The notes under the pieces were generated by a model that did not search any database, was not told where the DNA came from, and saw only the letters and a program-made list of their open reading frames with translations. Below, piece by piece: positions 4,780 through 22,665 of a stretch of 25,642 bases of DNA; position 1 is the stretch's first letter; each line of letters starts with the position of its first letter. Position numbers and translations under genes: made by a program. The stretch spans positions 1-25,642 of IMG/VR virus record IMGVR_UViG_3300020172_002313; one strand, written 5' to 3'. The stretch is from a virus.

Positions 4780-4795
4780 TATACGCCACCGTGCC
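4780..4795 (-). repeat. CGCCACCG box, copy 1 of 9 (diverged)
   Basis: TATACGCCACCGTGCC on the plus strand; the CAGGTTG half is lost. It opens the gene-free region after the replication genes. Confidence 0.5.
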
Positions 4796-5055
4796 TCTTT
4801 GGAAGGAAGACCGTGATTACTATTTCATTCGCCACAGTCCCGTGGTAGTGGTACAAGATAGCAGATGATTTGCCGTCCCGCACGCACGTTTCAAAACAAA
4901 TCCACTAGTAACGTAATTTAGTGTCCGACAGTCCCGTTACCGACCATCAAACCACAACCTGTGGGGGTGTTGATTGAGATGGGCGGGACTTGCTAGCGTT
5001 TGGTTTATCGACGGGGCTGTGAAGACCCCCTCTCCAAGACTCGTCGTGGTAGCAG

Positions 5056-5088
5056 GCGGGGCTAGGAACCCTTTGTCCTAGTCCCCGC
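5056..5088 (-). terminator. Strong GC-rich hairpin, possible bidirectional terminator
   Basis: GCGGGG and CTAGGA pair with TCCTAG and CCCCGC around an eight-base loop, with one bulged T; 12 base pairs in total. On the plus strand it is followed by TTGTTACT. It lies just beyond the end of the 5202-9238 minus-strand cluster, so it could end that transcription, although no clear T-run follows in that direction. The stem incorporates CGGGGCT and a one-base variant of AGTCCCG. Confidence 0.5.
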
Positions 5089-5160
5089 TTGTTACTAATT
5101 TAAGATTCGGTTTAACGTAAGTTGGATGGTCTCGCATCGACCGTGCAAGTTCTTTGTTTC

Positions 5161-5177
5161 CGCCACCGTTCAGTTTG
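5161..5177 (-). repeat. CGCCACCG box, copy 2 of 9
   Basis: CGCCACCGTTCAGTTTG, one mismatch to the common form. It lies between the hairpin region and the end of the gene at 5202, which it follows by 25 bases. Confidence 0.75.
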
Positions 5178-5201
5178 TACAACCGTGTGGTCGTCTTCTT
5201 C

Positions 5202-5522
5202 TTAGAACGGTTCTTCATCGTCGCCTTCTTCGTTTACTTCCATCATGATGAGGAATGCTTCTGACCGGCGTTTGATTGCTTCCTTGGTCATAATCGGCCA
5301 GTCTGCGATTGGTGATGCAAAACCTTCAAAATGTTCTTGTAATGCTTCTTCGCTACCGCAATCCGAACATACTTCTATTGACCGTTTGTCTGCGTCTCGT
5401 GTGAGACGAGATACCGCCCCCATGTATTGCCCGTGCTTTTCGTTTGAGGGGATTAGTCCTTCGCATCTGGGACAGACCCCTGACGCAATGAACTTGTTAT
5501 GTATTCGACTGAATGGTTTCAT
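5202..5522 (-). CDS. Phage zinc-ribbon protein of unknown function
   Basis: 106 residues. CPRC at 17-20 and CSDCGSEEAL at 52-55 make a four-cysteine zinc ribbon, followed by an acidic helical C-terminus ending EEGDDEEPF. Small zinc-ribbon proteins with a CSxCG-xxEA motif are common in actinophages. The leader upstream of the ATG contains ATAAACCTAAAC and a CGCCACCG box, with GAAAGAAG as a weak ribosome site. Function unknown. Confidence 0.78.
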   Translation of the reverse strand: MKPFSRIHNKFIASGVCPRCEGLIPSNEKHGQYMGAVSRLTRDADKRSIEVCSDCGSEEALQEHFEGFASPIADWPIMTKEAIKRRSEAFLIMMEVNEEGDDEEPF

Positions 5523-5567
5523 GTTTATCTTCTTTCGGTTTAGGTTTATAGTTTACTTTGTTTATTG

Positions 5568-5588
5568 TATACGCCACCGTTCAATTTG
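5568..5588 (-). repeat. CGCCACCG box, copy 3 of 9, promoter-like for 5202-5522
   Basis: TATACGCCACCGTTCAATTT then G on the plus strand. On the minus strand CAAATTGAACGGTGGCG is followed by TATACAAT, then the AAACCTAAAC leader and the ATG at 5522. This copy is the clearest evidence for a promoter role, since no GTTACACCCC promoter intervenes. Confidence 0.75.
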
Positions 5589-5796
5589 AATGGTGGTTTT
5601 GTTCAAATATCAGGTATCCGTTCCCGTCTTGCGCTATCCCAGTTACCCACGCCTCACGACGTTCCGATCCTGTGGGTGCGTTCGGGTTGTCTCCGACAAG
5701 ATTTCTGATTTTGTTTAATGCGTTTTCTGTTGCTTGACTTATGTCTTCACCTTCAACTTCTGTGGTGACCATGCAAGTGACTCTGTATGTTGCCAT
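5581..5796 (-). CDS. Small hypothetical protein
   Basis: 71 residues. The frame is open further upstream, but GGAGG nine bases before the ATG at 5796 and the TAATG overlap with the previous stop fix this start. The N-terminus alternates strands and a helix (YRVTCMVTTEVEGEDISQAT, then AENALNKIRNL), an arrangement seen in small phage proteins of the form strand-helix-strand. The last codons lie inside a conserved CGCCACCG box. Confidence 0.75.
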   Translation of the reverse strand: MATYRVTCMVTTEVEGEDISQATENALNKIRNLVGDNPNAPTGSERREAWVTGIAQDGNGYLIFEQNHHSN

Positions 5797-6119
5797 TATT
5801 TTTGTTCCTCCATATATTTGTTTACTGCTTTTAGACCTTTGTTGAGAATCATGGTGATGGGGAGGAACGCTGATGCTTGCGCACCGTATGTTTCCCCGTT
5901 CTTCTCTACTGACTCCGCAATCATCCGTTCGATGAGGTCTCCGTTGAATGCGACGCATACCTCGCCGTCTACCAGTCCATAGACCAACGGTGTCAACTTA
6001 TCTTTATCTTCAAACAATGTTGCGGGTGCTGTTAGGAATGTGACGGTGGTTCCGTCTTCATGTTGCATCCGAATCAACACATCATCGTTGTCGTCCTCTA
6101 GGAAGTCTTCAAAATCCAT
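5796..6119 (-). CDS. Hypothetical acidic protein
   Basis: 107 residues from the ATG at 6119; the longer open frame would read through the conserved box at 6141 and is unlikely to be coding. The first 14 residues are very acidic (MDFEDFLEDDNDDV). The rest is mixed, with a hydrophobic helix near the C-terminus (ASAFLPITMILNKGLKAVNKYM). The purine-rich AGAAAGAAG serves as ribosome site. The stop overlaps the next ATG as TAATG, so the two are coupled. No family recognised. Confidence 0.72.
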   Translation of the reverse strand: MDFEDFLEDDNDDVLIRMQHEDGTTVTFLTAPATLFEDKDKLTPLVYGLVDGEVCVAFNGDLIERMIAESVEKNGETYGAQASAFLPITMILNKGLKAVNKYMEEQK

Positions 6120-6140
6120 TTCTACTTCTTTCTGATGGCA

Positions 6141-6161
6141 TATACGCCACCGTTCAATTTG
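6141..6161 (-). repeat. CGCCACCG box, copy 4 of 9
   Basis: TATACGCCACCGTTCAATTT then G on the plus strand, identical to copy 3. Lies in the 64-base gap between 6184 and the ATG at 6119, with AGAAAGAAG directly after TATATG on the minus strand. Confidence 0.8.
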
Positions 6162-6183
6162 TAATCGTTTACAGCCACTCTTT

Positions 6184-6696
6184 TCAGAAGTGGTAGTCCA
6201 CAATCACTATCCATTGTCTGTCAGGGTTGCTCTCTACACGCTCATTTACCCATTTGGGATTTGCCGTGTATTCAATGGTGTCATAGAACATGACATCCGA
6301 TGTGTATCTCCCGTTGAGAACCTCGAACGCTCGTGTTACCTTGAAGACCGCAAGACTCTCTTCGAGGTATATATCTCGCTGTTCTTTGGTGAGGTCGTTC
6401 ACTGGTTTGTTGAAACTACTGAAGTCATACTTCGGGTTGGTCAATAGTTCCTTCAACGAGATGTCCCCATATAGTTCAACTGCTTTCGTGACTGTTTCTT
6501 GCGTCCACTTGCACGCCTGTTCTTTTTGTTCAACGAACTTGGTTGGGTTATCTTTGTAGGAGATGACCGACTCAACATCGTCGATGTGGATTTGATTCCA
6601 GTCAGACCACACTTGTTCGTTCGCAAACGCTTCTGCGAGTGCAATCGCTTCTTCTCGGTCGTCTGCTTCTACTGCTATTCGGTGATATGTATGCAT
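6184..6696 (-). CDS. Hypothetical protein
   Basis: 170 residues. It opens with MHTYHRIAVEADDREEAIAL, a strand followed by a helix that recurs in small phage proteins acting on unknown targets, and ends with WIVIVDYHF. Charged and soluble, with no membrane segment or cysteine cluster. AAGGA sits eight bases before the ATG. A CGCCACCG box fills the gap to the next gene. Not recognised. Confidence 0.75.
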   Translation of the reverse strand: MHTYHRIAVEADDREEAIALAEAFANEQVWSDWNQIHIDDVESVISYKDNPTKFVEQKEQACKWTQETVTKAVELYGDISLKELLTNPKYDFSSFNKPVNDLTKEQRDIYLEESLAVFKVTRAFEVLNGRYTSDVMFYDTIEYTANPKWVNERVESNPDRQWIVIVDYHF

Positions 6697-6700
6697 GGTT

Positions 6701-6919
6701 TTATCCTTGTCTCGTGTCGTATGGTTTGCCTGCGACGAAAGTTACGCAGGTGTATTCTTCGCTTTCGTCCACTAGGTGAACTCCGTCGATGTTGTCGTAC
6801 CAACCGTCGTTACCTATGACGACCATCGTGTCTTTGTCCTGACCTTCCAATAAGTCCAAGAGTTGTCCGACGGTCAAAATGCCTTTTTGGGATTTCGCAT
6901 AGTTTGACTGGGTTTTCAT
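6701..6919 (-). CDS. Small hypothetical protein (DUF-like, ILTVGQLLDLLEG)
   Basis: 72 residues; GGAGGT six bases upstream and the TAATG overlap with the previous gene define the start at 6919 rather than further upstream. KGILTVGQLLDLLEGQDKDTMVVIGND resembles the TVGELI--L---D-d-pV-v phage domain also visible in the protein at 14815-15024 (TVRQLIESLKKENLDEPVVYEY). These small proteins are frequent in phages, without known function. Confidence 0.75.
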   Translation of the reverse strand: MKTQSNYAKSQKGILTVGQLLDLLEGQDKDTMVVIGNDGWYDNIDGVHLVDESEEYTCVTFVAGKPYDTRQG

Positions 6920-7344
6920 TAGATTGACCTCCCCATGATGTCTCGTGCATAGTTGCGGATACCTGAGAGAAGTTCCTCTTGGTAAACATTCCACAGATAG
7001 TCAGAAGAGAGGATGTATTGACCTAACTCTTCTAGTTGGTCGTCGGTGAGTTGTTCACCTAACTTGAACTCGGGGATGTCTGTCAGGTGACTGTTCTCGA
7101 ACTCGTCTCGTAACGCTTTAGGACTAAACGACATTGAGTTTGCGTGAGTAAGGTCATTATCCACGAACCGTTCCAATGCCTTGCCGTATTTTTCACCGAG
7201 TTGCGTTGCGAAACTATCCGCTCCGCTCTCGTCCCAGTCTTTGAGGATTGCCTTACCCTCGTCGTCTAGTTTGTCCGTGTCCACGACGACCGTGTTTGCT
7301 AGTTCGCAAACCGTTCCGTCGAGTTTGTTGATGAGTAGTTTCAT
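6919..7344 (-). CDS. Hypothetical protein
   Basis: 141 residues from the second ATG (7344), which has GGAG eight bases upstream; the first ATG at 7359 has none. Begins MKLLINKLDGTVCELANTVVVD; the rest is acidic and helical. A sigma70-like promoter lies upstream (TTGCAA, 17 bases, TACAAT). First gene of a unit continuing into 6701-6919 by TAATG. Not recognised. Confidence 0.74.
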   Translation of the reverse strand: MKLLINKLDGTVCELANTVVVDTDKLDDEGKAILKDWDESGADSFATQLGEKYGKALERFVDNDLTHANSMSFSPKALRDEFENSHLTDIPEFKLGEQLTDDQLEELGQYILSSDYLWNVYQEELLSGIRNYARDIMGRSI

Positions 7345-7371
7345 TTTTAGTAACTCCATTTCTAGTAGGTG

Positions 7372-7410
7372 TATTTATTGTATCGGCTACAAAAACTATT
7401 TGCAACCTTA
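7372..7410 (-). promoter_or_regulatory. Sigma70-like promoter
   Basis: On the minus strand TTGCAA, 17 bases, TACAAT, about 40 bases before the start at 7344. Unlike the other promoters it lacks the GTTACACCCC box (the spacer has GTAGCC), so it may be regulated differently. Confidence 0.5.
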
Positions 7411-7423
7411 GGCGGTCAGGTTT

Positions 7424-7783
7424 TTACACCCGAACCGCCCTACTAAGGATTTCTGCCTCAATCTCTTTCACAGGACGAGGACTCCAATGACAGTCGCGCT
7501 CCACCGCAGGTACACCGCCAAAGACGGTCACTGCTTCTAGTTCGCTGTACGAGAAGTATCCGTACTCCATCTCGAACCCATCCACGAGACCCCAAAAGGT
7601 GTCCTTGCCGTCAAACTCAACCGCATACCAAGTCCATTGGGAATACGGTGAGAAGAACTTGACCACTGCTACCGCTTCTTTCGAGACATCGTAGAGTTGC
7701 TCGCTGTTGTAGAGAGGTGGGAGGGTGTCCCTAATCTCTTGCGTGAGTAGTAGGTGTTTGCGTTTTGCTTTTTGAGTTTCCAT
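7424..7783 (-). CDS. DUF2958 domain protein
   Basis: 119 residues covering a whole DUF2958 domain: LLLTQEIRDTLPPLYNSEQL, VAVVKFFSPYSQWTWYAVEFD, FWGLVDGFEMEYGYFSYSELEAV and a late VERD motif match the family pattern (LP-LY, VKFF-P-S-WTWY--E, F-GLV-G-E-E-GYFS--EL). The family is found on phages, plasmids and conjugative elements; its function is unknown. AAGGAG precedes the ATG and the start overlaps the previous stop (TAATG). Confidence 0.88.
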   Translation of the reverse strand: METQKAKRKHLLLTQEIRDTLPPLYNSEQLYDVSKEAVAVVKFFSPYSQWTWYAVEFDGKDTFWGLVDGFEMEYGYFSYSELEAVTVFGGVPAVERDCHWSPRPVKEIEAEILSRAVRV

Positions 7784-7929
7784 TACTTTATCTCCTTGTA
7801 GTTTCCGTTCCTGAGTTCTTTCAGGTTTGTGTAAATGATTACTTGTCCCTCGTTATCAACATCGAAGTCGCAGGTTGGGATAAGTTTTTCTAACGCTTTA
7901 CGCAACTTGTCTCCGTCAATAGTTTTCAT
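7783..7929 (-). CDS. 48-residue hypothetical protein
   Basis: Reads MKTIDGDKLRKALEKLIPTC and continues for 28 residues to NGNYKEIK. GGAG seven bases before the ATG at 7929; an in-frame ATG immediately upstream overlaps the previous stop (ATGA). The stop overlaps the next start as TAATG. The exact fit between two coupled genes supports it despite its size. Predicted helix followed by strands; not recognised. Confidence 0.7.
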   Translation of the reverse strand: MKTIDGDKLRKALEKLIPTCDFDVDNEGQVIIYTNLKELRNGNYKEIK

Positions 7930-8282
7930 CATTTTGCTCCTTCATAGTCGTCGGATTCGTCTTCATCATCAAACTCGTCTTCGTCTTCTGCACTTTGTGG
8001 GATGAGGTTCGTGTAACCCTCGTTCGGGTTCTCTTCGTTATGAACCACTGAACTTATGAACTTCAATGGACACGACTCGTCGTACCACTTGACAAGTTGC
8101 TCACGCAACTCTGAAGGTGTCCCCGTAACTTTGGTGTAATCATCTCGGTCACGAAACCACTGTGCCTCAATCTCGTCTAACGCAATATAGATTTTGTGAC
8201 AACCATCGAACGCAATAAGATATGCGTATTCCAGTGCGTTCTCTACATCGCTCCAATAATCTTGCATTGTTGTTGTAGCCAT
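7929..8282 (-). CDS. Hypothetical protein with acidic C-terminal tail
   Basis: 117 residues. A mixed N-terminal domain (YAYLIAFDGCHKIYIALDEIEAQWF) is followed by a strongly acidic tail (EDEDEFDDEDESDDYEG). Acidic tails like this occur in DNA mimics and chaperone-like phage proteins, but there is no other support for that here. AAGGAG seven bases before ATG. Driven by the promoter with the GTGTTACAC box at 8346-8355. Confidence 0.75.
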   Translation of the reverse strand: MATTTMQDYWSDVENALEYAYLIAFDGCHKIYIALDEIEAQWFRDRDDYTKVTGTPSELREQLVKWYDESCPLKFISSVVHNEENPNEGYTNLIPQSAEDEDEFDDEDESDDYEGAK

Positions 8283-8322
8283 TTTGTTGCTCCTTGTTTA
8301 GTAGGTTTAGTAAGGGTTTTAT

Positions 8323-8360
8323 CCCTCACCCATAACTATAGGTGAGGGGTGTTACACGGT
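8323..8360 (-). promoter_or_regulatory. GTAACACCCC-type promoter/operator with hairpin
   Basis: On the minus strand TAACACCCC (8346-8354) precedes TATAGTTAT. The -10 region lies in the loop of a perfect eight-base inverted repeat (8323-8330 with 8341-8348). Just downstream is the AAACCTA leader and AAGGAG of the gene at 7929-8282. The hairpin is GC-rich and could alternatively work as a terminator. Confidence 0.5.
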
Positions 8361-8363
8361 TGT

Positions 8364-8609
8364 TTAGACGGTGATGTCTCGTGCGTACACCTTGCTGGTG
8401 CAGAACTTATGCATCGCTCGGATTGCCTTATTCGATGAGTCTCGAATCCCCGACCAGTCGTAACCCTGCTCAGGTATATACCCAACTTCTCCGTACCCAT
8501 CGCTGAGTGAGTAGAGTTCCTCTAAGAAATCGTTGTCCATAGATTCCGTCCACGCCTTATGAATGGTGGGGAGTTGGGTGTCTCGGTCGTATTTCTTTTT
8601 AGTTGGCAT
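8364..8609 (-). CDS. Small hypothetical protein
   Basis: 81 residues, with a basic start (MPTKKKYDRDT) and an aromatic-rich middle (YSLSDGYGEVGYIPEQGYDW). Upstream lies a leader and promoter nearly identical to that of the next minus-strand gene at 9238. AAGGAG nine bases before ATG. Not recognised. Confidence 0.72.
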   Translation of the reverse strand: MPTKKKYDRDTQLPTIHKAWTESMDNDFLEELYSLSDGYGEVGYIPEQGYDWSGIRDSSNKAIRAMHKFCTSKVYARDITV

Positions 8610-8684
8610 TTATATTTCTCCTTGCTCGATAGGTTTATTTTTACTTACTCCCACATTGTATCTGTGGGGTGTTACACAGTTATT
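8605..8684 (-). repeat. Duplicated promoter-leader, copy 1
   Basis: Almost identical over 80 bases to 9234-9313 (constant offset of 629), covering start codon, ribosome site, AAACCTATC leader, -10-like TACAAT and GTGTAACACCCC box. Differences are a few scattered bases. The near identity of a whole promoter points to recent duplication or gene conversion, or to strong selection. Confidence 0.85.
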
Positions 8685-9238
8685 TAGACGGATGCCTTGC
8701 TGAGTGCTTCACGACAGAGTCCCCAAATCGAATCAACGACCTCGGATACTTGGTCGTAGAACTCGTCATATTCTTCGTTCTCTTGTTGTGCGGAAGACAT
8801 ACTTGGGTATTCCCCTTCAAGTTCTACAACGAACTCGCCGTTGCGGATTGCGAAACCGCCCAAGAATGCCATACCACCTTCGTCGTAGGTGAGAATGAAG
8901 TCAAGTGTCGGGAACTGTTTGGACACATTGCGTATGCCCTCGCCGATAGGAGACCACGCCGACATAAATGTTGCATGGATTTCCGTATCGGTGACAATGT
9001 TGAACACTCCGTCAAAGTCCGACCACTTGGAACCGTAGTTTGCACAGTTCCATGCGACTGCATCTATTCCGTCTATTCCGTCTTTTTTGTCTTTCGGTGT
9101 AGGTAATAGGTTGTCGAGAATGCTGAACTGGTCGTGTTCCTTACGTTCGTCTTCGTTCTTGATAATCGCTTCGTGGAAACGCTTGATTTCTTTTGCGTCT
9201 CCACTCACATGAAGGTTGTTGGTGCAGTAGTTTGGCAT
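8684..9238 (-). CDS. DUF1281/Api92-like protein
   Basis: 184 residues from the ATG at 9238, with AAGGAG nine bases upstream; the open frame before it belongs to the leader. MPNYCTNNLHVSGDAKEIKR, the Leu-Pro-rich segment NLLPTPKD, AVAWNCANYGSKWSDF and AFMSAWSPIGEGI-like segments match the DUF1281 family (N-terminal MPNWC-N-L-I-G, central W---NWGTKWD, then W-PP-). The family is common on phages and plasmids. Role unknown, sometimes found with antirestriction or plasmid-maintenance genes. Confidence 0.85.
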   Translation of the reverse strand: MPNYCTNNLHVSGDAKEIKRFHEAIIKNEDERKEHDQFSILDNLLPTPKDKKDGIDGIDAVAWNCANYGSKWSDFDGVFNIVTDTEIHATFMSAWSPIGEGIRNVSKQFPTLDFILTYDEGGMAFLGGFAIRNGEFVVELEGEYPSMSSAQQENEEYDEFYDQVSEVVDSIWGLCREALSKASV

Positions 9239-9313
9239 TTGTATTTCTCCTTGTTTGATAGGTTTATTTTTACTTACTCCCACATTGTATCTGTGGGGTG
9301 TTACATAGTTATT
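9234..9313 (-). repeat. Duplicated promoter-leader, copy 2
   Basis: Partner of 8605-8684. Contains TTACTCCCA, a 12-base spacer and GGGGTGTTA, the inverted-repeat operator form, with TACAAT (9284-9289 on the minus strand) in the spacer, then the AAACCTATC leader and AAGGAG of the DUF1281-like gene. Confidence 0.85.
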
Positions 9314-9344
9314 TTTAGTAGGTGCTTATTTATTACATTACCAT

Positions 9345-9392
9345 TATATACACACCACAAAACAAAAAGCAACTCTTTCCCCAAAAATCTTT
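9345..9392 (-). promoter_or_regulatory. Second upstream sigma70-like promoter
   Basis: Minus strand: TTGCTT, about 18 bases, TATAAT, followed by GGTAATG. It is upstream of the GTAACACCCC promoter of the same gene. The same TTGCTT/TATAAT pair precedes the gene at 22255-22512, next to another CGCCACCG box. Confidence 0.5.
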
Positions 9393-9437
9393 TAGACCTA
9401 AACGACCCCCACAAAACCAACAGCCCTCGACCACCCA

Positions 9438-9458
9438 TATACGCCACCGTTCAGGTTG
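9438..9458 (-). repeat. CGCCACCG box, copy 5 of 9
   Basis: TATACGCCACCGTTCAGG followed by TTG on the plus strand; on the minus strand CAACCTGAACGGTGGCG leads into TATA. It sits upstream of the minus operon starting at 9238. Read in that direction the box occupies the 17-base spacer before a -10-like TATA element. Confidence 0.8.
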
Positions 9459-9613
9459 AACAAAGCCGGCAGTGTCGCCTTGCCACCCTGCGATGCTTGA
9501 AAGCGCATCACAGCCCCGCACCCGTAGCACTTTGCGCTACAGCCCCGCTACCCGATGCGACAGCACGGGACTGTTGCAGGCGAACGGGCGTTTGGTCAAC
9601 TACTATCGAGACT
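9459..9613. other. Operon-border module with AGCCCCG and CGGGACT motifs
   Basis: Holds AGCCCCG at 9512 and 9541 and CGGGACT at 9566. ACAGCCCCG pairs with CGGGACTGT except for one C-A position. No gene is evident on either strand until the ATG at 9614; the frame open before it is not supported by start or ribosome site. Confidence 0.6.
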
Positions 9614-10009
9614 ATGACAATCTCCAGAACAGACAGATGGCAACACCGCTTCAACGCACTAGTCCAATACACAGACCGCACAGGAACTTCGCTTGTTCCA
9701 GCAACACAGGTTGAAGTTTATGGGGGCAAGAATGTCGCCCTCGGTGCGTGGGTCGCCTACAACCGTCAGCAATACAGGACAGGTGGGTTGTCATCCGCTC
9801 GCAAACAAGCGTTTGAGCAACTCGCAGGGTGGCATTGGGAGAAACAGAAACCTGGCAGACGCTACGACAAGACCCGAGACGCAGACATCTCGAAGCGTTA
9901 CGAGAGTGGCGAGCGTGTCGGTGACATCGCCAAGAGTTACAACCTTTCACGCCAACGAGTTCACCAAATCGTCAAAAAAACATCCAAACAAAATGTCCAA
10001 CTTTCCTGA
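9614..10009 (+). CDS. Helicase-associated domain plus helix-turn-helix protein
   Basis: 131 residues. The first part, RWQHRFNALVQYTDRTGTSL, then LGAWVAYNRQQYRTGGLS and FEQLAGWHW, matches the helicase-associated (HA) domain: W--R---L, P----V-GG-LG-WV--QR---G-L----R---L---GW-W. It is followed by a helix-turn-helix (ADISKRYESGERVGDIAKSYNLSRQRVHQIVKK) of resolvase/sigma-4 style with SRQRVHQIVK as recognition helix. Both parts are nucleic-acid binding, so it is a candidate DNA-binding regulator. The start is weakly supported (no good ribosome site). It overlaps the next gene by 17 bases and lies on an isolated plus-strand island. Confidence 0.72.
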   Translation: MTISRTDRWQHRFNALVQYTDRTGTSLVPATQVEVYGGKNVALGAWVAYNRQQYRTGGLSSARKQAFEQLAGWHWEKQKPGRRYDKTRDADISKRYESGERVGDIAKSYNLSRQRVHQIVKKTSKQNVQLS

Positions 10010-10340
10010 TCATAGTCACGGTAAGCGTGACGCATGGAAAAAGATGAGCGAGTGGTCGCACAGCGTTTCTGATTCTGAACTCGATGGGTTATGGAGTGAA
10101 TGGGATGACGAGGGAGAGTTTGCCAACCAAGACGCAGACCGACCACAAAAAGTTTTCAGAAAACTATTTTCCGCACTTCTCGGTTTCGTTTTGGGAATCG
10201 CTTTCTTTTCATTCGTTGTCTACCGTGTCGCACTCGCACTTGATGTCAGCGGGTTTACATTCGTTGAGTCGGTCATCGTCACTGCCGGCGTGGCACTCAT
10301 CCGATACGCAGACGCAGGAGTGATGAAACAGTTCCGATAA
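9993..10340 (+). CDS. Two-helix membrane protein
   Basis: 115 residues. The N-terminal half is soluble and charged (WKKMSEWSHSVSDSELDGLW). Two hydrophobic helices follow (about 57-81 and 88-107), with KKVFRKL-like positive charge before the first. Overlaps the HTH gene by 17 bases, which suggests coupling. A hairpin terminator follows at once. Function unknown; could be a holin-like or superinfection-type membrane protein, but no lysis gene is nearby. Confidence 0.65.
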   Translation: MSNFPDHSHGKRDAWKKMSEWSHSVSDSELDGLWSEWDDEGEFANQDADRPQKVFRKLFSALLGFVLGIAFFSFVVYRVALALDVSGFTFVESVIVTAGVALIRYADAGVMKQFR

Positions 10341-10348
10341 ACACAGCA

Positions 10349-10386: not shown

Positions 10387-10474
10387 TCTGCGGAAGAAAC
10401 CGAAAAGGTGAAAGGAGATAAGCCCTTTCGTTCCTCTAGCAATCAGAATAACACACAACCAATATGTCATTCTG

Positions 10475-13877: not shown

Positions 13878-13900
13878 TATATGCGCCACCGTTCAGGTTG
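13878..13900 (-). repeat. CGCCACCG box, copy 6 of 9
   Basis: TATATGCGCCACCGTTCAGG then TTG on the plus strand. On the minus strand, CATATAAACCTCAACG follows, which includes the AAACCT leader motif, so this box too may act as promoter towards the gene at 13475-13750. Confidence 0.8.
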
Positions 13901-14052: not shown

Positions 14053-14078
14053 CCCCGACCTGCTGAGACAGATCGGGG
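14053..14078 (-). terminator. Rho-independent terminator (minus strand)
   Basis: On the minus strand CCCCGATCTG pairs with CAGGTCGGGG (one mismatch) and is followed by TATTTTTGTA. It lies 32 bases after the stop of the DUF4314-type gene at 14110. Confidence 0.8.
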
Positions 14079-15870: not shown

Positions 15871-15915
15871 CCCCGTGAGACACTTTGGCACTTTTGTCTC
15901 ATTTTCATTTAGGTT

Positions 15916-15938
15916 TATATAAGCCACCGTTCAGGTTG
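15916..15938 (-). repeat. CGCCACCG box (variant AGCCACCG), copy 7 of 9
   Basis: TATATAAGCCACCGTTCAGG then TTG on the plus strand. The minus-strand continuation TATATAAACCTAAATG matches the AAACCTA leader, yet no convincing gene begins there; it runs into the DnaA boxes. Confidence 0.8.
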
Positions 15939-16299: not shown

Positions 16300-16512
16300 G
16301 TGTGCGGTGGTGGTAGGGAATCACACGACATCGAGCAAGCGGAGCGTGCTGACTTGCTAGACACGCTGTTTGCTTCGCTGATGAGGGTCGCCCGATGGCA
16401 TGGCGCACTTCAGGCAAAGTTTGAACGAGACTTATTTGGCGCAACGCTCACCGAACTGCTAACGCAAAAAAGCCCGCCTACCGTAATGGTAGACGGGCTA
16501 GTCAACGCCTAA
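16300..16512 (+). CDS. Possible small helical protein, GTG start
   Basis: 70 residues from GTG at 16300, with GAGAGAG about 12 bases upstream. IEQAERADLLDTLFASLMRV and ALQAKFERDLFG form an amphipathic helix pair. Its C-terminal codons run across the minus-strand terminator at 16471-16499, which weakens the case for coding; the same sequence must then serve both roles. Six bases after the preceding ORF. Confidence 0.42.
   Translation: MCGGGRESHDIEQAERADLLDTLFASLMRVARWHGALQAKFERDLFGATLTELLTQKSPPTVMVDGLVNA
16465..16499 (-). terminator. Strong rho-independent terminator (minus strand)
   Basis: AGCCCG and CTACC pair with GGTAG and CGGGCT around a five-base loop; on the minus strand it is followed by TTTTTTG. 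It lies 17 bases beyond the stop at 16516 and ends the 16516-17449 operon. Confidence 0.88.
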
Positions 16513-17000: not shown

Positions 17001-17449
17001 GCCCACCCTTCAGTGCCGTTGCCACCCTTTGCGATGAGTGTCGCACGATGCCAACACTCGAGAATCTGCCGACCGACTAATCCTGACGCACGAGTGTGCA
17101 CTTCGTTGAGATAGTTGACGACACGAGTCTCAAACTCGCCCAACGCCTTTGCGCTATATCGTGCGATAGGTTGCGACGCAACGGTGCCTGATGGATAGTT
17201 GTCGTTGTCAAAGATTGCGAACTTGACAACTTCGAATCCACGACTGCGGTCGTAGTGTGCAAACCTGATGAACGCACTGAACTGTTTGCGGTCGGAATCG
17301 TGCGAGATATCTAGTTTGACTAGTCCGCCGACTTGCTCGCCGTCAAACTCGATATTCTGCAACGGACTGCGCCAAGTGTAAGTGACTGAACGGTCGCCTA
17401 CCTTGCGAGTTGCTTGCGCAAAGTTTGCGCTTAGTGTGGATGTTGACAT
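16997..17449 (-). CDS. Hypothetical protein
   Basis: 150 residues with GGGAG before the ATG. Strand-rich N-terminal half (VTYTWRSPLQNIEFDGEQVG, LVKLDISHDSDRKQF) and a helical C-terminus. First gene of a coupled trio ending at the terminator 16465-16499. Not recognised. Confidence 0.75.
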   Translation of the reverse strand: MSTSTLSANFAQATRKVGDRSVTYTWRSPLQNIEFDGEQVGGLVKLDISHDSDRKQFSAFIRFAHYDRSRGFEVVKFAIFDNDNYPSGTVASQPIARYSAKALGEFETRVVNYLNEVHTRASGLVGRQILECWHRATLIAKGGNGTEGWA

Positions 17450-17523
17450 TACTTGCTCCCTTGTCTAGTAGTTATATGGATTACCTTATTACTTATTATG
17501 TTACGGTACGGGTGTATCACGGT

Positions 17524-17733
17524 TCAGACTTCAAACTCTTCTTCGTGCATCGTTGAGTAGTCCGTGAGTCCGATATATTCGACGAGTCCCCGAACGGTGC
17601 TCAAACCGATTGTGTTAGTGCACCATGTCTGCGCTGTCGCCAAGTCTGCGAACTCTTTATTGACGATTGACTTGTCGCCATCGTTATCTAATCGCACTCG
17701 TGCGATAACTATATGTTGTCTGTCGTTTATCAT
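17524..17733 (-). CDS. Small hypothetical protein
   Basis: 69 residues, strand-helix-strand pattern (HIVIARVRLDNDGDKSIVNK, FADLATAQTWCTN). AAGGGG ribosome site. Promoter with GTTACACCCC box at 17796 and TATATT at 17785. Not recognised. Confidence 0.7.
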   Translation of the reverse strand: MINDRQHIVIARVRLDNDGDKSIVNKEFADLATAQTWCTNTIGLSTVRGLVEYIGLTDYSTMHEEEFEV

Positions 17734-17784
17734 ATGTCTAGCCCCTTATGTCTAATGGAATGGCGTTATTGCCATCCGCTATCT

Positions 17785-17806
17785 AATATACGCACGGGGT
17801 GTAACG
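17785..17806 (-). promoter_or_regulatory. GTTACACCCC-type promoter
   Basis: Minus strand: CGTTACACCCCG (box at 17796-17804) then five bases and TATATT (17785-17790). The same order and spacing occurs before the genes at 18752 and 19867. Confidence 0.6.
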
Positions 17807-18020
17807 GGGTGTGATGTCACGATGTCATGATGTCACCTATCTGGTCGGATATACACGATCGTAGATAACTGCGGGTCTCGCCGTCGGCGACTGCGGTCGA
17901 TTCGATTAGGTCGAGTCGATTGAGTCGGCACACTTGCGCCGGCGTCGTTAGCCCCGTTGCCGTTTCGTTCTGCGAACAGCCCCGCAGAAGATACTTGAAT
18001 GACGGGACTAGCAACACAAA
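17807..18020. other. Operon-border module without CGCCACCG box
   Basis: TCGATTCGATTAGGTCGAGTCGATT cluster near 17898-17920, AGCCCCG at 17950 and 17978, CGGGACT at 18003. ATGTCACGATGTCATGATGTCAC near 17812-17834 is a short tandem repeat (GATGTCA). No gene supported. Confidence 0.55.
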
Positions 18021-18042
18021 AACCCCACCCGAAGGTGAGGTT
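18021..18042 (-). terminator. Rho-independent terminator (minus strand)
   Basis: Minus strand: AACCTCACC, loop TTCG, GGTGGGGTT (one A-C mismatch), then TTTGTGTT. It lies 15 bases past the stop at 18057. Confidence 0.8.
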
Positions 18043-18056
18043 CTCATGTTTGCTGG

Positions 18057-18269
18057 TTATTTGAGTTCGATGACCGTTGCGTCCATCTCAAACGCATGAC
18101 CGTCTGCCCACTCGTCGAGTGAATCCAACGCAATCATCGCTGATTGTTCTGGTGTTCCGTCCATCTCATCAAACTTGATAGATAGTTTGATTTCGATGGT
18201 GTGCGAGTTTCCTTTGGGAACCGTTGCCATGATTTCGGCAACTTGTTCTAGGAACTTGGTGTTGTCCAT
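18057..18269 (-). CDS. Small hypothetical protein
   Basis: 70 residues. MDNTKFLEQVAEIMATVPKG then a strand (HTIEIKLSIKFDEM) and acidic helix. AAGGAAAG before ATG, AAACCTAGAC leader further upstream. Not recognised. Confidence 0.72.
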   Translation of the reverse strand: MDNTKFLEQVAEIMATVPKGNSHTIEIKLSIKFDEMDGTPEQSAMIALDSLDEWADGHAFEMDATVIELK

Positions 18270-18345
18270 GTTCTTTCCTTTCTTGTCTAGGTTTATCTAT
18301 TACGAGTTTGGTTACGCACGAAGCGCAACGAAGTGTGACCGCAGA

Positions 18346-18606
18346 TTACGCAGTCACCGCTTCGATACAAACCGCTACTGCACCATCAATGACGGTGCTT
18401 GTAACCCAATGCCCTGTCCAACCTGATTTGGTGAGATACTCCTGCACCGCACGGTTGTAGTTTTCCGAGATACCCAGTTCATGTTTCCATGAAACCATGA
18501 TTCGGTTCGGGTCTTTCTCGCCGTATCGTGCAACAGAGATTCTTCCGCTGTTGCCGAGATACTTGCATTTCAGTGTTGCTCGATGACTGCTTGATACTTT
18601 GTTCAT
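18346..18606 (-). CDS. Small hypothetical protein
   Basis: 86 residues. Basic N-terminus (MNKVSSSHRATLKCKYLGNS) and IMVSWKHELGISENYNRAVQ, then strands at the C-terminus (WVTSTVIDGAVAVCIEAVTA). The start follows the preceding stop by two bases with GGAGTGAAG in that gene as ribosome site. Not recognised. Confidence 0.72.
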   Translation of the reverse strand: MNKVSSSHRATLKCKYLGNSGRISVARYGEKDPNRIMVSWKHELGISENYNRAVQEYLTKSGWTGHWVTSTVIDGAVAVCIEAVTA

Positions 18607-18608
18607 TA

Positions 18609-18752
18609 TTACTTCACTCCGTAAGACAGACAGATTTGCATTACTGCATCGTTCAGTTCTTTTATCATTTCCTGAACTTGACTGTCCGCAAGTCCAGTAA
18701 TCATTTCTCCATCAATCGATGAAGTCCATACATTTTCTATTTCTTTGTTCAT
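18609..18752 (-). CDS. 47-residue hypothetical protein
   Basis: Reads MNKEIENVWTSSIDGEMITG to a helical C-terminus ending LSYGVK. AAAGGAAACC before the ATG, leader with AAACCTAGAC and a GTTGCACCCC promoter. Followed at once by TAATAATG into the next gene. Fits the operon; not recognised. Confidence 0.68.
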   Translation of the reverse strand: MNKEIENVWTSSIDGEMITGLADSQVQEMIKELNDAVMQICLSYGVK

Positions 18753-18788
18753 TTGGTTTCCTTTGTTGTCTAGGTTTACTTACTACTA

Positions 18789-18810
18789 ATACTACGCACG
18801 GGGTGCAACG
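18789..18810 (-). promoter_or_regulatory. GTTGCACCCC-type promoter
   Basis: Minus strand: TTGCACCCC (18800-18808), five bases, TAGTAT (18789-18794). Single-base variant of the GTTACACCCC box; followed by the AAACCTAGAC leader. Confidence 0.55.
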
Positions 18811-18843
18811 GAGTGTGATGGGGAAACCGCACTCAAACTTTTG

Positions 18844-18864
18844 TATCCGCCACCGTTCAGGTTG
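18844..18864 (-). repeat. CGCCACCG box, copy 8 of 9
   Basis: TATCCGCCACCGTTCAGG then TTG on the plus strand. It lies upstream of the minus operon starting at 18752, at a similar distance from the GTTGCACCCC promoter as in the other copies. Confidence 0.8.
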
Positions 18865-19079
18865 AGGGGGTGTCTTCGATAACTTGGGTCTCGGCTCTGG
18901 CTCGACGGCTCGATTCCTGCTCGATTCCTGCTCGACGTTCGACTTGACGTTCGACTCGACGCATCGGATGAGTCCCGTGCATGCTTTCTTCGCACGGGAC
19001 TGTGTCCCCGTCGGCATCGACTTCGAATAAATCGACTGACTTCTGGTTGTGGTTCTGGCGACTGCGCTATGATGCTGAG
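18865..19079. other. Operon-border module with tandem TCGA repeats and a perfect AGTCCCG hairpin
   Basis: GCTCGATTCCT occurs twice and ACGTTCGACT twice in tandem near 18911-18958. AGTCCCGTGC (18971) and GCACGGGACT (18992) form a perfect ten-base inverted repeat around an 11-base loop. No minus-strand gene is seen. Confidence 0.62.
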
Positions 19080-19085
19080 GTGAAA

Positions 19086-19286
19086 GTGACTTGCTCCATC
19101 TGCAACACAGACTTCGACACCCTGACTACGCAATACGCCGTAAAGGTCGTGGCATGGATAGAACACTCAAACGGCAGGTACATAGGCGCACCTAAGCACC
19201 CTTCTGCGCCTCTCGGGTACGCCCACAGGGTCTGCACAGATGGCAATAAGGCTGACGCTAATGACAGCGCACCAACGCTGTTCTAG
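19086..19286 (+). CDS. Small zinc-finger-like protein
   Basis: 66 residues from GTG 19086, with GAGG five bases upstream; a GTG at 19080 is an alternative. Starts MTCSICNTDFDTL, giving CSIC, and has HRVC near residue 50, so a treble-clef-like zinc site (CxxC ... HxxC) is likely. It is the plus-strand gene in an operon border, convergent with 19373-19867. Not recognised. Confidence 0.62.
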   Translation: MTCSICNTDFDTLTTQYAVKVVAWIEHSNGRYIGAPKHPSAPLGYAHRVCTDGNKADANDSAPTLF

Positions 19287-19288
19287 GG

Positions 19289-19324
19289 CATAAACGCAAT
19301 AAACGCAATAAACGCAAAAAACGC
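19289..19324 (+). repeat. Nine-base tandem repeat AATAAACGC
   Basis: Four units of AATAAACGC (first and last with small changes) lie between the stop at 19286 and the terminator at 19330. On the minus strand they follow the T-run of the terminator, so they may be a backup T-rich tail. Confidence 0.8.
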
Positions 19325-19355
19325 AAAAAGCCCCCCACCCCGAAGGGCAGGGGGC
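19325..19355 (-). terminator. Strong rho-independent terminator (minus strand)
   Basis: Minus strand GCCCCCTGCCC, loop TTCG, GGGTGGGGGGC, then TTTTTGCG. Two positions are G-U wobbles on the minus strand but A-C mismatches on the plus strand, so the minus direction is the functional one. It ends the gene at 19373. Confidence 0.9.
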
Positions 19356-19372
19356 GATTACTCAGACGGTAA

Positions 19373-19867
19373 TCAGATGCGCTGAACGCAAATCGGTCCG
19401 ATACCTCGCTCAACCGAAACAGGGTCTGAAAGTTCTGCGCCACACACGCAACAGATACCAAACTCGTGACCCGCCTTCTGCGCCTCTTCGAGAGTCATGC
19501 GGTTATCTGCGCTCAAACGGAACACACCGCCACGCTCGTACACGAACCGCTCAGACTTTACAGGTGCGAGGGGGTTGTACCGCATCGCATACAGGTTGCC
19601 TGACTGCTTAGAACGCTTGACACGGAACACAACGCCATCCTTGCGGTACATACCGAGTTCGGTGACGGGGTTCGCCTGAACCTCACGGACAGGTCGTGGT
19701 CGGTTGATGTTTCGCTCAACAGATGCCAACTGCGCTTCTGAGAGTGAACCTTTGCGGTCGAACTGCGACAACACGCTCGTAAAGAACGCATTGCCTTCTG
19801 CGTTCGCACGCAAGAACTCAACCACACGCACCGTGCGTGGGTCAAGGGTAAGGGTTGATGGGGACAT
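19373..19867 (-). CDS. Phage protein with C-terminal zinc-binding domain (DUF6011-like)
   Basis: 164 residues. The C-terminus LEEAQKAGHEFGICCVCGAELSDPVSVERGIGPICVQRI matches the DUF6011 type: A---G--YG-C-VCGR-L------E-GIGP-C, with C139, C142 and C160 as likely zinc ligands. The middle (RVKRSKQSGNLYAMRYNPLA) resembles regions next to this domain in other phage proteins. AAGGAG before ATG. Often found in phage replication or recombination regions; exact role unknown. Confidence 0.82.
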   Translation of the reverse strand: MSPSTLTLDPRTVRVVEFLRANAEGNAFFTSVLSQFDRKGSLSEAQLASVERNINRPRPVREVQANPVTELGMYRKDGVVFRVKRSKQSGNLYAMRYNPLAPVKSERFVYERGGVFRLSADNRMTLEEAQKAGHEFGICCVCGAELSDPVSVERGIGPICVQRI

Positions 19868-19900
19868 TTCTATTTCTCCTTTGTCTAGTAGTTGCTACCA

Positions 19901-19921
19901 ACATTACGCACGGGGTGTAAC
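19901..19921 (-). promoter_or_regulatory. GTTACACCCC-type promoter
   Basis: Minus strand: TTACACCCC (19912-19920), five bases, TAATGT (19901-19906), then GGTAGCAACTACTAGAC leader and AAGGAG. Same spacing as at 17796 and 18800. Confidence 0.6.
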
Positions 19922-20620
19922 AGGGTGTGCGGGGGTAACTCTTTGATGGCTTATCGATTACTCATTGACTTTATTTAGTGCTAAATCCAGACACCCCCAA
20001 ACGGCGGGAGTCATTTAGGTTTATCCAACATTTGTTAGCATTTGTGCTAACGACCTGAAGACGTCGGTCAGGTCGATTCCTTTGGCGGTTCAGCCCCACA
20101 GCCCCGCAAATCGTTGCTGGGCAACGGGACTGCTGGGTTTGCCCGCTCCTCACCCAGTTGGAAGCCGCCTGGTCTTCTGGTCGGCTGCATGGGACCACGT
20201 CCAAAATCAACAAAAACGTCACTTTTTTGACGTTTCCAGCAGCGGACCGTAAACCTTCATTTTTTCACTTTTCTTCACTTTTCTGAAAGCCTTATGCCAT
20301 AAGGGTTTCACGGTACGCGTATTTTGTAAGAAAGTACGGCAAACGCGGAAACGGGCAAAAAGCGTCAAAATCTCTCGATTTGCGTCGATGGGACCGGTCG
20401 ACCGGTCGAGAGGACCTGCTCAACCTGTCTGGAAAGACGGGTTTAGTCCCGTTGGTCAGCCGTATCGGCGGGGCTAATGGGCTAAATCGGGGCAAATCGG
20501 TGCTTTCAGCCTGGTCAAGGGCTCGACTAACCGAACGGATGCGCTGTTTCCTCATTTTCTTCACCCTGTCGGATAAACCCAAACAACGACCACGAGACAT
20601 CCAGAACCCGCAACATCGGC
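19922..20620. other. Gene-free region of about 700 bases
   Basis: AGCCCCG at 20100 and CGGGACT at 20125 form an imperfect hairpin; AGTCCCG at 20445 with CGGGGCT at 20469 forms another. GACCGGTCGACCGGTC (20392-20407) is a 16-base palindrome. AACGTCA/TGACGTT (20215-20235) is a hairpin with a T-rich loop, and CCTTATG/CATAAGG lies near 20289. A minus-strand frame of 102 codons (20292-20600) is rich in Arg/Ser/Pro, has no ribosome site and crosses the palindromes; it is not accepted. Confidence 0.5.
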
Positions 20621-20649
20621 TTGACTTCGTAACACCCTTGCGCTATTAT
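20621..20649 (+). promoter_or_regulatory. Sigma70 promoter TTGACT-N17-TATTAT
   Basis: TTGACT at 20621, 17 bases, TATTAT at 20644, followed by GGTACTG. The spacer contains GTAACACCC (20629-20637). About 40 bases before the ATG at 20689, with the leader ATAAACCTAGAC and AAGGAAA. Confidence 0.85.
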
Positions 20650-20688
20650 GGTACTGTAAGATAAACCTAGACAAAGGAAAATAAAACT

Positions 20689-21192
20689 ATGGGATACACG
20701 CACTACTTCATCCGAGACAAGAAACGACTTGGGTCTGCGTACTTTTACGGCAAACTCGCACTAGACGCAAAGGCGATTATCTCCGAGGCGAAAAACTCGG
20801 GCATCGTTATTGGCGACAAGGTTGGTTACGGTTCACCAGAGTTCACCGAGGCGTACTTCTCCCTCAATGGTGATGCGACGGCAGGGATTGACCACGAGAC
20901 ATTTCATTGGGAAGCATTACCCGTTCAACCTGAGTGGCAAAAAGAATACCAAAAAGGCGGAAGCGAAATCTTCGACTTTTGTAAAACGGCGTACAAACCC
21001 TACGATGCAGTCGTTACGGCGATACTTATCAGGGCGAAAGTCATCTACGGCGACTGTGTGAGTATCCGTTCAGACGGCGATTGGTCGGACTGGCAGGCAG
21101 GGCGAGACCTGTACGAAAGGGTCTTTGGAGAGACAGCACCCAACCCATTCGGAAGGGTGTACGAAGTTGAGTCGGTTGAGGTTATTTCCTAA
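20689..21192 (+). CDS. Conserved phage protein (MGYTHY family)
   Basis: 167 residues. MGYTHYFIRDKKRLGSAYFY and EIFDFCKTAYKPYDAVVTAIL belong to a familiar phage hypothetical family that opens with GYTHYW and has FCKTA-KPYD-VV-A-L near the C-terminus. Function unknown. A clear promoter and AAGGA site support the start. Standing alone between minus-strand operons. Confidence 0.85.
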   Translation: MGYTHYFIRDKKRLGSAYFYGKLALDAKAIISEAKNSGIVIGDKVGYGSPEFTEAYFSLNGDATAGIDHETFHWEALPVQPEWQKEYQKGGSEIFDFCKTAYKPYDAVVTAILIRAKVIYGDCVSIRSDGDWSDWQAGRDLYERVFGETAPNPFGRVYEVESVEVIS

Positions 21193-21203
21193 ACCGCAAC
21201 CGC

Positions 21204-21362
21204 TTATTCGCTGACGGTTACGAGTTCCTCTTTGGGGAGTTCGTCTAGTTCACACAAGAGACGCAGGTCTAGAAGTAAATCGACCATCTCTGATGTTGCC
21301 ACGAGGTCTCGCCCCGAGATGGTGTTGATGGTTTTATCTATGAGTGCAATGGTAGGCGACAT
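21204..21362 (-). CDS. 52-residue hypothetical protein
   Basis: Starts MSPTIALIDKTINTISGRDL and ends KEELVTVSE. ACAGGAAACC precedes the ATG, and the leader AAACTATTTAGAC is like the AAACCTAGAC leader. Helical and acidic. Not recognised. Stop lies 12 bases from that of the convergent gene. Confidence 0.65.
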   Translation of the reverse strand: MSPTIALIDKTINTISGRDLVATSEMVDLLLDLRLLCELDELPKEELVTVSE

Positions 21363-21392
21363 GGTTTCCTGTCTAAATAGTTTATCTGAGTT

Positions 21393-21542
21393 TTATTCGT
21401 AGAACGGTTCAGTCGGTCTTTCTGACGGGTGGTCTCTTTCCCACTTGCGTAATCGATACCACGCCCACCCGAGGGGTATGACGACGAACGACACGAACAG
21501 TATCTTGACGGTCACAAGACCGATGATTATTCGTTTACGCAT
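21393..21542 (-). CDS. 49-residue membrane protein
   Basis: MRKRIIIGLVTVKILFVSFV then VIPLGWAWYR and a charged tail. One transmembrane helix at about 4-28 with positive charges before it, so the charged tail would be outside unless reversed by RLRK after the helix. Overlaps the previous gene by eight bases. Not recognised. Confidence 0.65.
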   Translation of the reverse strand: MRKRIIIGLVTVKILFVSFVVIPLGWAWYRLRKWERDHPSERPTEPFYE

Positions 21543-21744
21543 CACCGAGAAGTAGAAGTGCTTCGTCAATCTGCATGGATGTCTTGATGTTGTGGTCGCC
21601 GTCGTACATGACAGTCACATAGTTCGCACCCCGAGAAGGGTCTTTTGCTAGGTCGCAAAGTTCTGCGTATGCCTGTGCGATTGCGTCCATGTGGTTGTCT
21701 GACTCGTAAATCATTTCCCAACGGACTAGGTAAGGTTTGGTCAC
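21535..21744 (-). CDS. Small hypothetical protein, GTG start
   Basis: 69 residues; GTG start overlaps the previous stop (GTGA). MTKPYLVRWEMIYESDNHMD with helix AIAQAYAELCDLAKDPSRGA and a strand TVMYDGDH. It resembles small phage proteins with strand-helix-strand domains similar to that at 6184-6696. Not recognised. Confidence 0.7.
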   Translation of the reverse strand: MTKPYLVRWEMIYESDNHMDAIAQAYAELCDLAKDPSRGANYVTVMYDGDHNIKTSMQIDEALLLLGDA

Positions 21745-21974
21745 AACTCTTCTCCGTTCTCGTCTTGATAAACAAGAAATCTTGCGTTCTCAACACCAAA
21801 GTCCTCTTGCGCCCAACCCTCAACTCGTTCCATCACATCTTCGATGGTTACTTCTGAGGTGCTATCGGGGTTTTCTGATACGATAAGTTCCACAACATCT
21901 GACACAACAAATGAGATTACTTTCATTACATTGATGCGTTCTGGTAGTTCGTTCACAGTCTCAGTCTTGGTCAT
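21741..21974 (-). CDS. Small hypothetical protein
   Basis: 77 residues from the ATG at 21974 overlapping the previous stop (ATGA). ISFVVSDVVELIVSENPDST and VTIEDVMERVEGWAQEDFGV; acidic. Not recognised. Confidence 0.7.
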   Translation of the reverse strand: MTKTETVNELPERINVMKVISFVVSDVVELIVSENPDSTSEVTIEDVMERVEGWAQEDFGVENARFLVYQDENGEEL

Positions 21975-22183
21975 ACGAATGCATCCACTTGCCATTGGAA
22001 CATCGGTTTGACACCGAGGTCATCAGTGACGCAACGGGAAGTTACCTCAACATCGACTTTGTATTGCTCCAAGTATGCGAGTTCCTCTGCAAGTTCTACT
22101 TTCGCAGTCTCTATCTCGTAACGGAGTTCTGATATTCGCTTTGAGGTTGTCTCAAAGGTGCGCTTTTTCTTTTTTAGTTTCAT
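21971..22183 (-). CDS. Small coiled-coil protein
   Basis: 70 residues with a very basic N-terminus (MKLKKKKRTF) followed by a coiled-coil helix (ISELRYEIETAKVELAEELA). First gene of a four- or five-gene coupled unit (21204-22183). Ribosome site is weak. Not recognised. Confidence 0.7.
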   Translation of the reverse strand: MKLKKKKRTFETTSKRISELRYEIETAKVELAEELAYLEQYKVDVEVTSRCVTDDLGVKPMFQWQVDAFV

Positions 22184-22222
22184 TGCCTATGTCTTTCGTC
22201 TAGTTTGTCTATGTTGGTTATT

Positions 22223-22251
22223 ACTTTACCTAACGGGTGTAACGAAGTCAA
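22223..22251 (-). promoter_or_regulatory. Promoter TTGACT-N17-TAAAGT with GTTACACCC in the spacer
   Basis: Minus strand: TTGACT (22246-22251), 17 bases including GTTACACCC, TAAAGT (22223-22228). Together with the promoters at 20621 and 23437 it shows the full arrangement: TTGACTTCGT-ACACCC and a -10 element. Confidence 0.75.
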
Positions 22252-22254
22252 TGA

Positions 22255-22512
22255 TTAGAAAGTGTCGTTTGCCGTTAGTGACTCAGGGAGAACTAATGCT
22301 CGCTGTGCTTCAACGATTAGTGCATCTGCTTTGTAGAGTAAGTCTCGCACCTGACTAACGGTTTCCCTATATACCGCACTTGTTTGTTCAGGTTCTCGTG
22401 CTAAGAGTTCCGAAAGAACAATGTCTTGTGTGTAATGAAGTGAGTTATTTACTCGACCAAGAGACATTGCGTCTCCATCGAATATTTCCCTAATGCCTAT
22501 ATTTTCTGTCAT
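22255..22512 (-). CDS. Small hypothetical helical protein
   Basis: 85 residues, mostly helical (EQTSAVYRETVSQVRDLLYK, ADALIVEAQRALVL). AAAGGCAAG as weak ribosome site. Promoter TTGCTT-N17-TATAAT upstream. Its stop lies close to the promoter of the next minus operon. Not recognised. Confidence 0.68.
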   Translation of the reverse strand: MTENIGIREIFDGDAMSLGRVNNSLHYTQDIVLSELLAREPEQTSAVYRETVSQVRDLLYKADALIVEAQRALVLPESLTANDTF

Positions 22513-22555
22513 CTATTTACTTGCCTTTCTATTGCTAGTTTTATATTACATATCC

Positions 22556-22584
22556 ATTATATGGCACCCGCAGCCAGAAAGCAA
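22556..22584 (-). promoter_or_regulatory. Sigma70 promoter TTGCTT-N17-TATAAT
   Basis: Minus strand: TTGCTT at 22579-22584, TATAAT at 22556-22561, GGATATG after it. Upstream lie two ATGTTCGCA direct repeats and a CGCCACCG box. Confidence 0.65.
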
Positions 22585-22642
22585 CCCCCCTGCCAAACAA
22601 ATGTTCGCAACACAAAACATATGTTCGCACCCCCCGAAAGTT

Positions 22643-22665
22643 TATATCCGCCACCGTTCAGGTTG
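22643..22665 (-). repeat. CGCCACCG box, copy 9 of 9
   Basis: TATATCCGCCACCGTTCAGG then TTG on the plus strand; minus-strand continuation GATATAAACTTTCG. About 80 bases upstream of the TTGCTT/TATAAT promoter of 22255-22512. Confidence 0.8.

Follow-up and report, generated by a model that had tools for sequence, protein, structure and literature searches.

A strand-locked box repeated through one small-gene block of probable actinophages, tentatively read as an oriented operator array

The stretch analyzed here, hereafter the window, is a linear IMG/VR virus record of 25,642 bases (IMGVR_UViG_3300020172_002313), in which a short asymmetric box, CAACCTGAACGGTGGCG, recurs on the minus strand. The box is kept in dozens of uncultured phages, and in the window and its relatives its sense is always that of a block of small minus-strand genes. 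We tentatively favor the possibility that the box forms a new oriented operator array, which would work in a stoperator-like manner and control this one block. The copies in the window and other features mentioned below are summarized in Table 1.

Copies of the box and their conservation

Both strands of the window were searched for CAACCTGAACGGTGGCG with up to 3 mismatches allowed, using shuffled sequence as the control. This gave 8 copies with 0–2 mismatches on the minus strand and 0 on the plus strand, while the shuffled window gave a mean of 0.10 matches (maximum 2). A ninth copy, S9, is diverged in its 5' half and keeps the core ACGGTGGCG intact, and has orthologs in relatives. The nine strand-consistent copies described in an earlier note on this DNA were hence confirmed, 8 as matches and 1 as the diverged copy.

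Table 1. Positions of the boxes and associated features in the window.
Feature	Position	Strand	Remarks
Box S1 CAACCTGAACGGTGGCG	22649..22665	-	followed by GATATA; at the head of the block, with a TTGCTT-N17-TATAAT promoter downstream
Box S2	18848..18864	-	exact, followed by GATACA; past a strong terminator, upstream of a GTTGCACCCC promoter
Box S3	15922..15938	-	1 mismatch, followed by TATATAAACCT
Box S4	13884..13900	-	exact, followed by CATATAAACCT
Box S5	9442..9458	-	exact, with TATATG next; the HA-HTH gene runs divergently
Box S6 CAAATTGAACGGTGGCG	6145..6161	-	followed by TATATG; next ATG 26 nt downstream, hairpin just before, position conserved
Box S7	5572..5588	-	overlaps the upstream gene's stop codon
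Box S8	5161..5177	-	within a conserved 46-aa open reading frame; GAAACA instead of TATA
Box S9	4784..4800	-	diverged 5' half, ACGGTGGCG core intact; downstream of the extended -10-like TGCTATCTT, in a conserved region resembling a noncoding RNA
HA-HTH protein, 131 aa	9614..10009	+	Pfam HA domain and sigma4/resolvase-like helix-turn-helix (LSRQRVHQI); candidate box-binding regulator
LexA-like palindrome GCGAACGGGCGTTTG	9580..9594	+	upstream of the HA-HTH gene
LexA-like palindrome GCGAACATTTGTTTG	22594..22608	-	between box S1 and the S1 promoter
Intrinsic terminator	19330..19355	-	before S2
Intrinsic terminator	16471..16499	-	before S3
Intrinsic terminator	14053..14078	-	before S4
Sigma-70-type promoter TTGCTT-N17-TATAAT	22556..22584	-	downstream of S1
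Sigma-70-type promoter TTGCTT-N17-TATAAT	9344..9372	-	downstream of S5

An exact scan of viral contigs yielded contigs with multiple copies, together with scattered lone matches that arose by chance. The relatives read were G005 (144.9 kb), G006 (138.1 kb), G009 (100.9 kb), and G003 (74.2 kb), plus shorter contigs. In each of the four named records, 10 or 11 copies occupy the orthologous places S1–S10 (S2b being an extra one), all on a single strand and in one block, although their flanks have diverged; S10 is missing from the window. The earlier note had beforehand made its interpretation depend in part on conservation of the box in relatives with different surrounding sequence, and the box is indeed kept at approximately 10 orthologous sites. 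The block spans about 17 kb in the relatives (e.g., 32.5–50.1 kb of G006), with no comparable site elsewhere in the 138–145 kb records, and the number of copies per phage is 6–11. A CobT-like protein (88 to 42% identity) led to more distant relatives, which retain the core on a single strand. A logo of 47 such sites reads ACGGTGGYGGAWRRC with no -10-like element nearby; these sites were collected with a pattern fixing part of the core, so that the constancy of the fixed positions partly reflects the search itself, and a separate logo of the box still includes some chance matches. A less circular sample was therefore formed by 79 loci selected by the HA-HTH protein and not by the box, in which the box pattern was ACGGTGG[ACT]G. 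Here, 432 boxes were located on the strand opposite the HA-HTH gene versus 11 on the other, counts that are not independent events because many of the loci are near-identical contigs. At least 3 boxes occur on the opposite strand in 66 of the 79 loci, and a reversed control motif gave 14 and 29 on the two strands.

No match was obtained for cultured phages by megablast, and a literature search for the core sequence found no phage paper among those listed. A 22-base pattern of the box, scanned against 84,980 prokaryote genomes, matched three times in all, always within Bacteroidales genes that code NLNGGGYKGQAEA or nearly so, and these matches were rejected as chance. We take the Bacteroidales genes to be those of ribosomal protein S9. 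The box-bearing relatives are probably phages of freshwater actinobacteria, since G003, G005, G006, and G009 each encode two WhiB proteins and the nearest annotated phage, identified through an HslV-like protein (37% identity), is Actinomycetia phage DSL-LC01.

The TATA-like end and the gene borders

The earlier note proposed a second class of promoter containing the TATA-like hexamer that directly follows the box. This hexamer is present after 8 of the 9 window copies and at 42 of 50 near-relative sites, whereas the copy at 5161 has GAAACA in its place, likewise in 4/4 relatives. For the 79 HA-HTH loci, the hexamer follows 65 of 84 near-group boxes versus 0 of the remaining 348, of which 281 have GAWRR in the TATA place; in the CobT-found relatives, the box continues as GAAAGCC, GATAGCC, or GAAGAC. 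TATAYA is a trait of the window's own branch, which weakens the promoter reading, and the proposed promoter class was not borne out. A TATA-like stretch beside a conserved box can mislead when a single branch is viewed. It appears unlikely that the box, placed at about -29 to -13 with TATAYA as the -10 element, is read by a phage-modified or phage-encoded RNA polymerase. Such a promoter would explain S6, which lies 25–34 nt upstream of an ATG across the window and relatives, just past a hairpin and with no other promoter visible. It would also have a parallel in the cultured cousin DSL-LC01 (OQ999401; L100), where positions 22600–43300 contain approximately 33 same-strand CTAAAGWTGTTATAAT copies before small genes, many with a flanking inverted repeat. 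The regions are comparable in their small genes and same-strand placement, but CTAAAGWTGTTATAAT adjoins a perfect extended -10 TATAAT and is unrelated in sequence to the box, and DSL-LC01 possesses neither the box nor HA-HTH. No -10-like element at a fixed distance was detected in the 348 distant boxes or in the 47-site logo, while separate promoter-like sequences follow S1–S5 in many cases, and S8 and S10 are located inside open reading frames. A search for sigma-70 region 4 found nothing above the cut-off in relatives; T7-like RNA polymerase (PF00940) had no match in 12 records, and the same search had no match in the controls either.

The surroundings of the box were examined on gene calls from a simple in-house caller plus conservation. 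The distance from S1–S5 down to the next gene on the minus strand is mostly 97–235 nt, with outliers of 242, 510, and 1282 nt that depend on the gene calls, and 30 of the 50 near-relative sites overlap no called gene. The claim that all copies lie at minus-strand borders or between genes accordingly stands for the unit borders and fails for S7, whose overlap with the upstream gene becomes complete inclusion in G005, as well as for S8. A reading of S10 in differing peptide frames was rejected, as one frame is used across relatives. Strong minus-strand terminators precede S2, S3, and S4, and AGYCCCG...CGGGRCT hairpins, perhaps terminators without a U-tract, occur about 40–140 nt before most S1–S5 and S9 copies. 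Separate promoter-like sequences are found downstream of S1–S5 in many cases, either TTGCTT-N17-TATAAT (S1, S5) or GTTACACCCC-N5-TANNNT. The placement of the box at minus-strand unit borders upstream of GTTACACCCC promoters was thus verified, and it applies also to the TTGCTT-N17-TATAAT promoters. AAACCT, which the earlier note placed after at least four copies, directly follows only those at 13884 and 15922; elsewhere it is part of a separate leader further downstream.

The hairpins are situated on the minus strand of the window at 24792, 23253, 22758, 20475, 20131, 19001, 18009, 16067, 16039, 14039, 14011, 9572, and 4990, and in each relative they are limited to the box block and its immediate edges, at unit borders. 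A second promoter-like class, GTTACACCC(C)-N5-TANNNT, was observed on the same strand at 22243, 19921, 18809, 17805, 15775, 13399, 12906, 12075, 9304, 8675, and 8355, and is concentrated in the box block of relatives.

Action at the level of DNA or RNA

The region around S9 looks like an undescribed noncoding RNA. Its marker AAAGGTTCCCCCRRACCCCCTCCAAAG, at 4660–4681 (-) of the window, is present in 52 loci including distant relatives, 44 of which have a box within 400 nt upstream, and lies 99–145 nt downstream of S9 in most relatives. The extended -10-like TGCTATCTT is located at about 4855–4860, upstream of both S9 and AAAGGTTCCCCCRRACCCCCTCCAAAG, and no Rfam match was found in the window or in the S9 regions. 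The position of S9 in the 5' part of this putative transcript, together with the constant sense orientation and the location of S8 and S10 within transcribed open reading frames, would suit an element acting in nascent or readthrough RNA, such as antitermination, RfaH/ops-like pausing, or processing. Some copies in relatives read CGGTAGCG, which we presume to resemble ops. We nevertheless consider an RNA-level element improbable, as S1–S5 are past terminators and upstream of unit promoters, and no conserved pairing was detected. In predicted RNA folds of 97 sites, the accessibility of the core did not differ from that obtained when the flanks were shuffled (p = 0.61). A NusG paralog (PF02357), as expected on the carrier of an RfaH/ops-like element, was not found in 8 phage records by a search that matched NusG in 11 controls. 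An RNA hairpin formed by the box itself was also rejected, because its left arm varies without compensation and accessibility was no different from that with shuffled flanks. The lack of an accessibility signal and the location of S1–S5 upstream of promoters hence favor a DNA-level site.

A DNA-level site could also serve replication, partition, recombination, or packaging. Many asymmetric same-strand copies exist within one block, a ParB_N protein is encoded, and DnaA-like TTATCCACA repeats follow S3/S4-type sites. In the window, these DnaA box-like repeats are accompanied by TCCACA/TGTGGA palindromes at 15875–15830 and 13868–13830 (-), and they were also observed after S4 in relatives. We regard this explanation as very unlikely: the box keeps to the borders of genes and units, in orthologous places, rather than forming a compact cluster, it is not palindromic as parS-type sites are, and the DnaA-like neighbors are missing at most sites.

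Candidate binding protein and comparison with known systems

Oriented sites of this kind are known as stoperators in the cluster A mycobacteriophages. A monomeric repressor that has two DNA-binding domains binds those of the L5/Bxb1 type, whose orientation follows transcription and is important to their function (PMC9283540, PMC6550527). The box shares several of their features: it is short and asymmetric, it is dispersed in many copies per genome that mostly face one way with respect to transcription, and it occurs both between genes and in promoter regions. Its overlap with a stop codon and its positions inside open reading frames also resemble theirs (PMC9283540, PMC6550527). The box differs in its consensus, which extends over 15–24 bp versus 13, in its restriction to one block, and in that no integrase was found. 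We draw the parallel in working principle and not in membership, since the candidate protein also differs. Cluster K mycobacteriophages provide another comparison with SAS/ESAS, which are short non-palindromic repeats in non-structural gene regions, nearly all in one orientation and some with upstream inverted repeats (PMC3203893). SAS is the 13-bp GGGATAGGAGCCC, located 3–7 bp before start codons and containing the ribosome-binding site (PMC3203893). The box is likewise short, non-palindromic, and oriented, but its sequence differs and it is usually 25–235 nt upstream at no fixed place, so that it is not an SAS.

The likeliest candidate for a protein that binds the box is HA-HTH, which is encoded within the block. 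Its HA domain was matched in Pfam at 1.8e-14, its C-terminal helix-turn-helix resembles those of resolvases and of sigma-70 region 4, and an AlphaFold model gave a mean pLDDT of 83 and a pTM of 0.54. All box-bearing relatives that were studied closely encode HA-HTH. A search of cultured phages found none, while 272 relatives were found in IMG/VR. When contigs were sought by the box alone, 14 had several copies; 8 of these encode HA-HTH, and five others gave weak matches, mainly to the helix-turn-helix part of other open reading frames. Of the six without it, G020, G022, G029, and G030 break off close to the box array, in the direction where the gene would be expected, and G028 is a 10.7-kb fragment. 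The co-occurrence is strong yet imperfect, and we count it as an association rather than proof because the genes of the block travel together.

In most relatives, the HA-HTH gene has a LexA-like palindrome of the pattern CGAAC-N4-GTTYG upstream of it, and the window, G005, and G006 have one at S1. The pattern is close in form to the Streptomyces LexA consensus, tCGAAC-N4-GNNCGa (PMC9380542). Such palindromes occur in G005, G006, G013, G015, and G016, and the 138-kb G006 has them at only two places, S1 and the HA-HTH gene. The pattern was not matched in G014 or G018, nor ahead of HA-HTH in G017 and G019. These sites suggest that HA-HTH and the block may be under SOS control.

From these observations we infer the following mechanism. 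A phage-encoded protein would recognize the core ACGGTGGCG, which is asymmetric, together with flanks that differ between lineages, and once bound, it would block or gate RNA polymerase moving through the site; where the site is upstream of a unit promoter, it would control or insulate that promoter. HA-HTH would be this protein, as its two predicted nucleic-acid-binding parts suit a long asymmetric site, and the LexA-like sites at its gene and at the S1 promoter would tie the block to SOS. Stoperator-like action appears most likely because the sites face transcription, follow terminators or hairpins, overlap gene ends, and lie in open reading frames and in the noncoding RNA leader. Of the readings considered, an oriented operator array needs the fewest assumptions to cover all of these positions, including the sites within open reading frames and in the noncoding RNA.

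Several observations weigh against this operator reading. No tyrosine integrase was found in the relatives, for which a lysogeny repressor would be unusual. A fold search of HA-HTH against PDB gave weak helix-turn-helix matches only, with no known repressor fold being convincing; neither sequence nor fold search of PDB matched it to an L5-type repressor, a comparison that covered HA-HTH alone among the phage proteins. G024 contains six boxes and no HA-HTH, a true exception as far as the contig reads. Conversely, L219 and L198 have the block genes and HA-HTH with no box, and several unrelated contigs encode HA-HTH with an identical recognition-helix motif and no box. The co-occurrence may merely reflect the shared conserved block, as CobS/CobT, WhiB, and HslV co-occur as well. 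The complete proposal, in which a SOS-linked, block-encoded HA-HTH binds 6–11 strand-locked sites and gates transcription of the block as an undescribed and independent counterpart of the L5 stoperators in integrase-less phages, is doubtful. If it is true, one control circuit, recognizable from sequence, is shared by many small genes in a common group of actinophages that is mostly uncultured. One-directional operator arrays would then have a second example, apparently independent of the first, and a concrete protein–site pair would be available for testing.

Further features were observed in the window. Leaderless-type starts were found at 9590–9614 (+), where TACTAT lies near the HA-HTH ATG, and at 4508–4545 (-) as TTGACC-N17-TAGTCT-N6-ATG. 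An HslV-like peptidase gene followed by a WhiB gene (2838–3095) is located at 2164–3095 (+), and this pairing and order also occur in DSL-LC01 and box-bearing relatives. Two methyltransferase open reading frames have 210 nt in common at 74% identity (469–678 and 1620–1829), pointing to a probable gene duplication.

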